Shown here piece after piece: positions 20,410-49,180 of a stretch of DNA of 64,000 nt. Each line of letters opens with the position of its first letter. Position 1 is the first letter of the stretch. The translations under genes were made by a program, and so were the position numbers. The notes under the pieces were generated by a model that did not search any database, was not told the origin of the DNA, and saw nothing but the letters and a program-made list of their open reading frames with translations. Location: NCBI RefSeq assembly GCF_026151205.1, contig NC_087084.1, positions 10,877,453 through 10,941,452 of the forward strand, written 5' to 3'. This DNA is from Bolinopsis microptera. Its lineage: Eukaryota > Ctenophora > Tentaculata > Lobata > Bolinopsidae.

Positions 20410-23400
20410 ATGCAGACAATAATAGTATTTATTTTGGTGTTCCAGCAACAATTAGCATTGGTTCTCTCAGGTGAGTCACTACCTTGGTTCGTTTAAATTT
20501 AATTATGGCGGGTTAAAGTTGGCGGTTTTTCGGAAATTTCGCCATAAGTTTACCCACCATTATTTTTACCTGTCATAATAAAACCTGCGGAGTCTATTTT
20601 TGCTGCAGTTTTGACAGGGTATTATATGACATGATAATTTTATCGTTCCTTTCTTAAATTGAAACAAGCGTCATGGACTCAATTTTTAGGTATTCCAACC
20701 AAAACGAGGTGGTTTTATACGGAAAAATCAAATAATTTGGTTGTAATGGACGGGATGATGATAAATCACTGAACAAATTGTGTATCGAGGGGTGTTTGCG
20801 GACTTCGAAAAACCGAAAAAATATTTTCGGCTAGTAATGAACAGGGTAGCATGAAACGTAGAGAAAAGTGGTTTTTAGAAACATTTTGACTTAGAAAATT
20901 TTCGGTCCGAGTCAAATTCGATACGTACCTCCCGTATCGAGAGCTTCCGCTTCCAAGCTCGTGTTGCAAAGGGAGTCCTGCCTTCCGAGATCGCATTACC
21001 AGGGGGAAGCCTCGAGTCCAAAATTGTGTATCCCCCGCGGGCCCCGGCTATAAACGCAACATATGTAGTATAGAGGAAACCCGAACCTTATTACGAACAG
21101 TAGCTCTAGTATTGCTCTTTATCACGTTTTATTATTATGATCCAGTTTTGGCTCCGAGTCAATTATTGTGCAGACAGCAGACTGCTGTCTTCCTATCTAG
21201 TAAAAACGATCCAGTGATAACACTGGGAGACTTTGGGACCGGAAACTGATCCGGCCCCCAAAGAGAGGTCAGATCACGTCACCAATTAGTGTCGTATAAT
21301 TAGTGATGTGATCCATGGATTGAATTTAATTGACATAGAAATGGGCTAGATCTGGGGTAGAGTTCACATGTCAATTCTGTAAATCATAGCTGTAGTCTGT
21401 ACATTAAGAAGTAAACATGATCTGACTGCTCGACTCGTAGATCACATAAGGGACGGGAGCTCTTGCAGCTTGCTAAAGGGGGGTTCTCGTATCAAGGATG
21501 TGAGACGTACGTGTCAAAGGCATGCAAGGGGAGTGAGCCGATCTAGTGTTCTAGGTATAAATATTGGGTGATAGAAGGTAGTAGTATCGCATTCTATCAA
21601 CAGTCATGCCTACCTTCTCCAAGTTCCTCAACGGTTTCAGAGGATGTCAACAGGTGCTTGATTCTGACGGATATATCTACAGCAGCAAGAAATATGATGA
21701 CACCGTCCTCTCCTCTGCTTGGCGTTGCCAGAAGAACAAATCCCTTAAATGTCCTGCTATGTGCTACCTCGCTCTCACAGACAACACTCTTTTCCTTGGA
21801 AGTAAACCACACAACCACGATTCGGATCTGGCTACCCCACAGAGACTCGAACTCCTTACAACGCTCAAGAGGAAGGCTGCAGAACAACCCCTGTCGGCGA
21901 CTCAGAACCTGATATCAGAAGTCCTTGCTGATGCTTCAACAGAAGTAAACCAGACGCTACCTAATATGGAATCCCTTGGAAAAGTCGTCTAACGAGACAG
22001 AGTTTCTGCCTCCGGATCTGCCCAACATACCGAGTCGAAGACTTCTCTTGAATTCGTTCTTCCTCCCAGCTGCACATCTACGAGAAGAGACGAACAATAG
22101 GAATACAAGGAATACAAGGAATACAAGGAATACAAATTTAAAATCTTAAGCTACAATAGTAACTGTTACAGTTAAGATAATAACAATATCATAAGATTTG
22201 AATTTATTATATTAATATAACTTAAACTAAAGTGAAACATAAAGATTTTGACAAAAAATATTTTGTTTACAATCGCCTTGGTAATGCTGTAATGCTTGAG
22301 CCAGGCCACTTTGCACTCGTTGTTGCGCGAAAAGAAACAAAAGCGCTGGTACAGTGATTTTCAGTGTTCATGTACTGGCCAGAGAGTCGACTAATTTCTT
22401 GCGGTTGTTAAAACACGTAGTGGCAAATCTAGCAACGACTCTCGTGAGGTGGACTTGACTTTCATTCGTGATTAATTCAATGATTTCACTGTTGTTGCTG
22501 ATGAATTTGAGCACGTTTGCTCCAGGGATGACAGTGTAAACAGAACAAGATGACGCAGATGGTTTGATTGAATTTGATATGATTGATTGGATCTTGTCTA
22601 GGACTTTTCGCCTCGATGCAGCGTTAAGATCACAATGGTTAAGGAAGTGATCTTCATTCTCAATAATACCAGAACCTAAGACTATATTGCACCAGGAGCA
22701 TATTCGCTCATCGCGAGGAGTTTGATTATATCGGCCAAGTTCAATTTCGAGTCGATGTGCACTGATCCGCAGTCTTGTGATATTAGCACGGTCTGCATAT
22801 TTAATGACACTGTCTAGGTAATACTCTTTGTTAAATTTGGATTTTAGGTCACGATAGAATTCTAATTTCCGAGAAGTGTTGATACAGGACCCCCAATATT
22901 CTCTAAAGCTACTTTTCAAAGTTTTATTAATGACGTGTGGTGTGAATATTTTACTCCCGATGGGTTGTGTTGATTGCGGAGGAATTCGTTTCTTGAAACC
23001 GTTGTGAATAAGAAAGTCCTCTTTTGGTGGTTTTGCGATACTCGGGTTACTTTCGAAAATTGACTTGGAGTGATTGTTTTTGAGTGTGCGGTAGGCTGTG
23101 ACATGATCGGTAGAGAAACATGGGTCTAGCGCGAGGACAGGCTCCAAACCTCTGTACCAGTCCAGTTTTGGAACATTCTTCCACAATTGGGTCCATCATT
23201 GTATCCCGTAAGCTTGAAGGGCTATCAGGATTTATTTTGTAACGAAGTGGGGCTCGAGCGTAAGTTTCATGGAGTACATACATACTTACTGCAGTTTGGT
23301 GATATAATAAAGTAGTCAACAACGCTGGCACCGCTGGTCTGGATACAAGTGAAGTCACCATATGAGTCTCCTAAAGTTCTCCCGTTGAGAATATGGAGTT

Positions 23401-48700: not shown

Positions 48701-49180
48701 ATGTTAACTGTCGGACACGCAAACAAGATGGTGAGCGACAGGAACCGGAAAATGAACCGCAAGATCGCTGTCATTATCTTTACTGACTTTTGCTGTTGGG
48801 TACCCTTCATAATCATATGTGCTCTACACACGCTTGGTATTATAGATGCTAGTCCTTGGTATGCTCTATTTTCAATAGTAGTATTACCTATAAACTCTGT
48901 GATAAATCCTTTATTGTACGACAATACCCTTTCCTTGACAATTAGTAGAACCTTTAGTAGCATACGAGGATCGTCGAATGCATTTATTTCAAAGATCAGC
49001 CGAATAACATCAGATACCCAATTAGATCCAGGTCTTGATAATCAAGAAATGGGTAGGGTTGCAGGATCAAAGCAACAAGGTACTGGTACGGATGCTATTC
49101 AGTCTAGAGGAAAGCCTGGGTGTGTAGGGGATGCTGATGAAGGCGGCATAGACTCCATAGTAGTGGATACTGGTGTTTAA
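42715..49180 (+). CDS. Mosaic adhesion-type GPCR, copy 2 (galectin/SRCR/LDLa/7TM)
   Basis: Exons: 42715-42787 (signal peptide; the ATG at 42736 aligns with copy 1), 43641-43925 and 44052-44276 (galectin-like), 45235-45335 and 45483-45741 (SRCR), 45969-49180 (LDLa repeats and 7TM, stop). Phases match throughout and no frameshift is seen, so this is the intact paralogue, about 1360 residues. There are no kringle exons in its 853-bp first coding intron. The 7TM part (about 47885-48955) has N in TM1, VRMYG after TM3, FTDFCCWVP in TM6 and [13 protein letters not shown] in TM7, closest in style to LGR/relaxin-type receptors, but with no leucine-rich repeats. The C-terminal tail of about 75 residues ends VVDTGV. 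Inference: a cell-surface signalling receptor with a recognition ectodomain. Confidence 0.82.
42895..43397. mobile_element. Foldback element in intron 1, GPCR copy 2
   Basis: Inverted arms of about 155 bp (outer TTGATTTCTCTTGG and its inverse) enclose a 160-bp T-rich loop. ATTATTTTTACC flanks the insertion on both sides (42883-42894 and 43398-43409). Copy 1 has the uninterrupted target at 20560-20580, which serves as the empty site. Confidence 0.85.
43641..44276 (+). CDS. Galectin-like domain, GPCR copy 2, split by an extra intron
   Basis: The two exons (43641-43925, 44052-44276) total 510 nt. They align along their length with the single 513-nt exon of copy 1; one 3-nt difference (ATC missing near 43727) accounts for the length. 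The 126-nt insert 43926-44051 starts GT, ends AG, and contains the stop that ends the plain open frame. Splicing it out restores the copy 1 sequence exactly at the junction (TGGG|GTTAC). Confidence 0.75.
44348..45059. mobile_element. Transposon insertion in galectin-SRCR intron, copy 2
   Basis: Compared with copy 1, about 710 bp are inserted between GATTTCTA and ACCATGATTTC. The left end reads TATACAGGGTGGGCCAAAAG, as in mariner-type ends. Inside, 44455-45025 is bounded by TGGTTCGAGGA and its inverse and matches the family seen at 56207 and 57960-58590. No transposase frame. Confidence 0.65.
45235..45741 (+). CDS. SRCR domain exons, GPCR copy 2
   Basis: Exons 45235-45335 and 45483-45741 match copy 1 in length and phase. 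The segment GTVCGEKFS of copy 1 reads GTVSGKKLS here, losing one of the conserved cysteines. Its bonding partner may be left unpaired. Confidence 0.8.
45969..49180 (+). CDS. LDLa-7TM exon, GPCR copy 2, intact
   Basis: An uninterrupted terminal exon of 3212 nt. Domain order: Cys-rich start ([16 protein letters not shown]), a Cys-rich linker with EGF- or LDLa-like spacing, at least five LDLa units, a linker ([14 protein letters not shown] in copy 1, SNYLTFLIK here), two closing LDLa units, then 7TM. Differences from copy 1 are scattered single bases, which gives a natural test of selection. The extracellular loop between TM4 and TM5 is unusually long, about 90 residues. Confidence 0.85.

Follow-up and report, generated by a model that had tools for sequence, protein, structure and literature searches.

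Tandem genes for candidate LGR-type receptors with lectin- and scavenger-type outer modules in the ctenophore Bolinopsis microptera

The locus described here raises the question of whether a class A G-protein-coupled receptor (GPCR) may carry kringle, galectin-like and SRCR domains in front of LDLa repeats and a seven-transmembrane (7TM) bundle, and of what such modules would be for. It lies in a window of 64 000 nucleotides from B. microptera (C13:10877453-10941452). We find two tandem paralogous genes, A and B, on the + strand, whose transmembrane (TM) regions resemble those of the leucine-rich repeat-containing GPCRs (LGRs) and which belong to a large family in this genome. In our view there is a slightly better than even chance that both encode LGR-type class A receptors that lack leucine-rich repeats (LRRs) and whose outer modules recognize glycans, microbes or protein surfaces, a reading drawn from the sequence.

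Gene A extends from an ATG at 20410 to a stop at 40660 (+ strand) and encodes a signal peptide, two kringles, a galectin-fold domain, an SRCR domain, LDLa and the 7TM bundle, in that order. In gene B (42715-49180, + strand), splicing of six exons at GT-AG sites yields a single open frame of 1384 residues, with the order signal peptide, galectin-fold domain, SRCR, LDLa repeats and 7TM and without a kringle. The first-pass annotation had placed all of these modules on a single receptor. The modules and their order are borne out, but they are divided between two tandem genes, of which only A has kringles; one gene over 20410-49180 is ruled out by the stop at 40660 and by a second signal-peptide exon at 42715-42787, which is the start of gene B. 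The features are as follows.

20410..20470, + strand: gene A signal-peptide exon, 20 codons plus 1 nt, phase 1; flanking DNA matches the start of gene B at 74-75% identity
32275..33129, + strand: gene A kringle 1, exons 32275-32404, 32820-32867 and 33044-33129; splice sites, frame, Pfam Kringle
33737..34824, + strand: gene A kringle 2, exons 33737-33866, 34075-34122 and 34739-34824; splice sites, frame, Pfam Kringle
35938..36450, + strand: gene A galectin-fold exon, uninterrupted; fold predicted by AlphaFold2 (AF2) and matched to galectins by Foldseek; Pfam 18.1 bits, below cut-off
36684..37182, + strand: gene A SRCR, exons 36684-36784 and 36924-37182; Pfam SRCR 38.1 bits
37450..40660, + strand: gene A LDLa and 7TM exon; 1-nt deletion relative to B near 37661
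42715..42787, + strand: gene B signal-peptide exon; hydrophobic stretch at residues 7-25
43641..44276, + strand: gene B galectin-fold domain, exons 43641-43925 and 44052-44276; Pfam 21.0 bits
43926..44051, + strand: repeat-derived intron in gene B, absent from gene A; 126 nt, GT-AG
45235..45741, + strand: gene B SRCR, exons 45235-45335 and 45483-45741; Pfam 31.2 bits
45969..49180, + strand: gene B LDLa and 7TM exon, open to the stop; Pfam LDLa and 7tm_1; PDB profile match to the LGR family

The 7TM region was assigned by several comparisons. The C-terminal 364 residues of gene B have relaxin receptor 1 as their best match (3e-10; 22 rows). When a profile of three TM regions was compared with the PDB, nine of the 13 rows were named LH, FSH, TSH or relaxin receptors, all at 1.6e-12 or better, the best being the LH receptor (3.7e-15) and relaxin receptor 1 (3.3e-13); the remainder comprise 8w1z, the name of which gives no family (2.5e-11), and three rows at 5.3e-4 or worse. 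This upholds the earlier suggestion of LGR/relaxin-type TM6-TM7 motifs; TM6 carries the pattern FTD..CW.P and TM7 the pattern PINS..NP.LY. The Pfam 7tm_1 match in gene B reaches 41.3 bits (cut-off 30.5; 1.6e-10) and covers only positions 132-260 of 260. A hydropathy scan of gene B at 1.5 detected the signal peptide and TM1, TM2, TM4, TM5, TM6 and TM7 and missed TM3, with the TM4 and TM5 peaks 98 residues apart. An AF2 model of the 1069-residue LDLa-7TM exon had a predicted local distance difference test score (pLDDT) of 28.6 and was left unused. Neither GPS nor 7tm_2 was found in the gene B protein (Pfam, E 0.5), and an Adhesion GPCR is ruled out by the 7tm_1 match together with the lack of a GPS at that threshold. 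By definition, LGRs are hormone receptors whose ectodomain is built of LRRs. As no LRR family was detected in the full gene B protein (Pfam, E up to 0.5), we regard the 7TM as LGR-type but the protein as not an LGR in the strict sense.

The outer modules differ in how they are identified. The spliced product of gene A contains two stretches of Pfam Kringle (149.6 bits together, 3.1e-44), the second identical to the first at 81 of 87 residues. Complete matches to kringle 1 occur in the window only at 32.3-33.1 and 33.7-34.8 kb (tblastn), and the kringles are thus confined to gene A; a chance match is ruled out by two in-frame three-exon kringles and a further one in a paralogue. SRCR exceeds its Pfam cut-off of 26.1 bits in gene A (38.1), in gene B (31.2; 2.8e-7) and in a paralogue, L029 (51.6), and a cysteine kept in A (TVCGEK) is a serine in B (TVSGKK). 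Chance is an unlikely source of the SRCR match in B, and likewise of the 7tm_1 match. LDLa is matched in gene B over three stretches (38.7 bits). Kringle, SRCR, LDLa and 7tm_1 are all matched by Pfam; the galectin-like domain of the first-pass annotation stands by its predicted fold and falls short of the Pfam cut-off. Its AF2 model, built from four genomic exons (gene A, L029, L030 and L031), has a pLDDT of 82.9, and 49 of the 50 PDB rows listed by Foldseek are named galectins or GRIFIN, the other being 6h64, 'CRD-SAT', with TM-scores by target of up to 0.80. The exon is thus predicted to have a galectin fold, a call that rests mainly on the model. The sugar-contact motif of galectins is H.NPR with a later W. 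In the four aligned galectin exons HLDFR is invariant, so that the H and R are kept and the N and P are not, and the later W does not fall in one column. Because the H and R are kept, sugar binding by this domain may be possible.

Whether these modules and the 7TM bundle form one gene is addressed first by the gene structures. The LDLa and 7TM unit is one exon in each gene. The module junctions of both genes are in phase 1 with GT-AG sites; each module is therefore a symmetrical cassette, and gene B can drop the kringles and stay in frame.

The genome (264.65 Mb, 232 contigs) was then searched; all counts given from it are lower bounds. The LDLa-7TM exon was matched at each of the 43 places scored, at 41-100% identity (761 first-look candidates), and each of the three closest scored loci outside the window (63-64% identity) is preceded by SRCR and galectin exons on its own strand. 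Two of these loci, on chromosomes other than that of the window, repeat the order kringle, galectin, SRCR, LDLa-7TM.

C12 locus, all minus strand: kringle 9260471, Sushi 9256161, galectin 9250883, SRCR 9249935, 7TM exon 9246738-9249779
C5 locus, all minus strand, over 50 kb: kringle 5723317, Sushi 5719019, galectin 5697470 with one stop, SRCR 5676835, 7TM exon 5673638

The third close locus, at 5.99 Mb on C5, has Sushi, galectin and SRCR in the same order and strand, without a kringle. The C12 kringle (91.9 bits) has three exons and shares both intron positions with the kringles of the window; it is followed by a ShK-like domain (33.4 bits). A broken set lies on the minus strand of C5, with a kringle at 7134987, galectin pieces with stops at 7132699 and 7130561, and TM6-7 at 7130016. 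A galectin query gave nine matches (all 11 candidates scored) at seven loci, six of which lie upstream of a family 7TM exon; the seventh, on C7, does not.

A directional test took 150 TM6-7 matches as anchors and compared exons lying upstream on the anchor's strand, at a distance of up to 15 kb, with those in three other placements. Kringle first exons (112 matches) stood upstream on the same strand of five anchors, compared with 0, 0 and 1 in the other placements, and SRCR exons (150 matches listed) of eight, compared with 1, 0 and 0. Random placement gave a mean of 0.32 for kringle or SRCR, and none of 2000 trials reached the observed counts; contigs C2, C8 and C11 entered these placements with estimated lengths. 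The counts include the window's own genes (one of the five for kringle and two of the eight for SRCR) and treat related loci as independent. As the module order is repeated at two further loci on other chromosomes, the kringle, galectin and SRCR modules very likely belong to the same gene as the LDLa-7TM exon, as judged from gene structure and genome position.

The two genes of the window are unequally preserved. Aligned as DNA, they are 95.5% identical across the 4513 columns that start at the intron preceding SRCR and run to the 3' end; the figure is 89-91% for the galectin pieces and 74-75% in the region of the signal-peptide exon. The higher identity towards the 3' end suggests that the 5' parts are older duplicates or that the 3' parts have been homogenized. 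The 1-nt deletion in the last exon of gene A shifts the frame relative to gene B. Gene A as assembled would be either a pseudogene or recently inactivated gene, or one that carries an assembly error, and gene B its open, kringle-less sister. The ratio of nonsynonymous to synonymous divergence (dN/dS, NG86) over the LDLa-7TM exon is 0.41 between B and the part of A after the deletion; between B and the C5 5.99-Mb paralogue it is 0.07, a value that is only indicative as dS is saturated (3.77).

Two of the introns contain repeat sequence. Intron 1 of gene A (11.8 kb) holds a long interspersed nuclear element (LINE) on the minus strand at about 28.4-32.2 kb (Pfam RVT_1 47.3 bits, Exo_endo_phos 50.4 bits), and the minus strand of 22368-32257 has a further open reading frame (ORF) at 24074-27163 with just a GDSL-lipase-like match below cut-off. 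The gene B intron at 43926-44051 is a fragment of a dispersed repeat, which was matched at all 40 places scored (249 first-look candidates). In the six copies read the repeat continues beyond the 3' end of the intron, and GTTA is present at both intron edges, as if duplicated on insertion; this reads as a recent intron made from the repeat.

The family comprises at least 150 loci, as 150 TM6-7 matches were scored from 350 first-look candidates, all at 3.3e-12 or better. Of these, 91 lie in an open frame of at least 950 residues, and together they are spread over C1-C13, C14, C15 and C64. The DNA upstream of 14 paralogues (L029, L030 and L032-L043) was read mostly by eye as ORFs, with 15 pieces run through Pfam. 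Five have modules with at least partial Pfam support.

L029: modules with Pfam support, including SRCR (51.6 bits)
L030: Sushi (24.9 bits), galectin, SRCR
L032: Sushi (26.6 bits); F5/8-like domain below cut-off
L033: F5/8-like domain and Sushi, both below cut-off
L043: last kringle exon, 31.6 bits against a cut-off of 34.3

Pieces of L039, L040 and L043 that look SRCR-like by eye matched no Pfam family, and the L033 F5/8-like exon had no PDB match at E 0.1. Four family loci (C3 7.83, C12 13.76, C12 5.85 and C5 12.25 Mb) have both F5/8-like and Sushi exons upstream. The Sushi exons were located with a paralogue's own Sushi exon; a PF00084 search (best 150 of 817) gave only Sushi domains stronger than those beside the receptors and was not used. 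The predicted module sets thus differ between family members, with kringle, galectin fold and SRCR in the window and Sushi, ShK and F5/8-like domains in relatives.

Several related sequences were noted in passing. About 63 kb past the end of the window lies a diverged LDLa-7TM paralogue (L025 2905-5408; C13:11004357-11006860), the TM part of which is 26% identical; by eye its signal peptide leads straight into LDLa repeats, and TM6-7 is in another, overlapping frame. Many kringles occur in a single open frame of 1593 residues at C11:16207723-16212051, which is 50 kb from an anchor and was not counted as support, and many Sushi repeats in one of 1575 residues at C1:8770483-8775406. Kringle exons 88% and 96% identical to those of the window lie at C9:8845875-8846540, with no family TM6-7 nearby among the matches listed.

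What the modules would do is best framed by the known receptors. In LGRs the ectodomain binds the ligand, usually via LRRs (PMC4561518), and activation of RXFP1/2 requires the LDLa module (PMC3822782, PMC4837482). The outer parts of the receptors described here are modules that in other proteins bind glycans, bacteria or proteins. In the reading we prefer, the modules would take the place of the LRR hormone-binding domain, and their targets would be glycans or protein surfaces on microbes, prey or damaged tissue. The LDLa pair adjoining TM1 would relay this binding into the 7TM bundle, as is proposed by analogy with RXFP1/2 and their LDLa module, and the bundle would then activate a G protein; the range of surfaces covered would vary with the module set of each member. 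The great size of the family, and the lectin, scavenger and complement types to which the modules belong, make a role in immune or self/non-self sensing plausible.

A number of observations weigh against this proposal. The frameshift in gene A means that the kringle-bearing gene of the window may not make a receptor. For nine of the 14 paralogues no Pfam-supported module was seen, most of their ORFs having been read by eye only, and the modules may therefore be an exception within the family. Gal-bind_lectin is below its Pfam cut-off of 22.1 bits in gene B (21.0) and in gene A (15.3 spliced, 18.1 for the exon alone), and the L029 galectin exon has no Pfam galectin match. The scores of the C5 5.67-Mb and C12 9.25-Mb copies are nearly equal, and the two are probably not independent of each other. 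Finally, an acidic residue precedes the TM3 arginine in the usual class A motif; here TM3 ends SIVRMYG, in which the arginine is present and the residue before it is not acidic.

The strongest competitor, which we hold to be possible though clearly the less favoured account, is a chemosensory family that detects soluble or surface cues of prey or environment in sensory tissue, its modules capturing or concentrating ligand. The size and dispersal of the family resemble those of chemoreceptor families, and a Beroe ovata gene with RXFP1 as its top hit is one of 45 genes with higher expression in the aboral organ than in the comb rows (PMC11184263); however, that gene is known here by its top hit only, and the modules found belong to types associated with the binding of pathogens or glycans. 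It is improbable that these are peptide-hormone receptors, in which the 7TM would still answer a relaxin- or glycoprotein-hormone-like peptide and the modules would only anchor or shield. The TM region is indeed closest to the LGR-family hormone receptors, but the usual hormone binder, the LRR part, was not found (Pfam, gene B), and at least 150 loci is a large repertoire for hormone receptors. That the N-terminal modules are separate secreted proteins merely adjoining the LDLa-7TM exon is hardly credible: the long LINE-bearing intron 1 does part the signal peptide from kringle 1 in gene A, and the modules of the C5 locus are scattered across its 50 kb, but the phase-1 joins are frame-consistent in both genes, gene B is open from signal peptide to 7TM, the module order is repeated on the same strand at three further loci (the kringle in two) and kringle and SRCR exons are enriched upstream of the anchors.

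Other coding features of the window surround these genes. A single open frame at 2949-4619 encodes a Sulfatase (110.9 bits), together with Sulfatase_C. Upstream of gene A, at 13609-14334, an SRCR domain (47.9 bits) follows a Thr-rich stretch; this is probably a separate gene. An open frame at 52065-53378 encodes six thrombospondin type 1 domains (201.3 bits), and two similar open frames of 120 residues are present at 55817-56179 and 57561-57923, the first of which matched no Pfam family.

The candidate receptors can be set against four known systems. The first is the type C LGRs, the relaxin receptors RXFP1/2 (C1) and GRL101 (C2), which share the LGR-type 7TM, the TM6 FTD..CW.P and TM7 PINS..NP.LY patterns and LDLa on the outside. 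Unlike these, genes A and B have no detected LRR, place their LDLa repeats directly before TM1, have galectin-fold and SRCR domains (and kringles in A) in front and have a long stretch between TM4 and TM5. In PMC4079206, type C LGRs are reported from anemones, corals and placozoans, GRL101 is a multiple-LDLa LGR and the comb jelly LGRs are described with LRRs. Kringle and SRCR domains are found on GPCRs in amphioxus, where PMC2246102 describes Adhesion GPCRs with an N-terminal Kringle, Somatomedin B, C-type lectin or SRCR domain; those receptors are of the Adhesion family with a GPS, whereas gene B has 7tm_1 and, at the Pfam threshold given above, no GPS. In the sponge Amphimedon, also an early-branching animal, Adhesion GPCRs carry SRCR repeats; these differ in their Adhesion-family 7TM, and the word kringle has no occurrence in the text of PMC4302439. 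The ctenophore Mnemiopsis leidyi has a large, expanded repertoire of SRCR genes with LDL, CCP and other partner domains; the main text of PMC11797021 has no kringle or galectin and a single 7TM, in the legend of a C-type lectin panel. The expectation that the architecture was previously undescribed held in the open-access literature searched, where no LGR-type receptor with kringle, galectin or SRCR was found, most subscription papers falling outside that scope. An LGR-type 7TM with these modules is a new form of a known receptor type: it is without detectable LRRs, bears lectin- and scavenger-type modules and belongs to a family of at least 150 loci, in an animal whose lineage is probably among the earliest to have branched. 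Should they recognize microbes, prey or self, such receptors would provide a testable explanation of the way in which ctenophores sense their surroundings, and a natural set of proteins with which to ask how large modular ectodomains can drive class A GPCRs.

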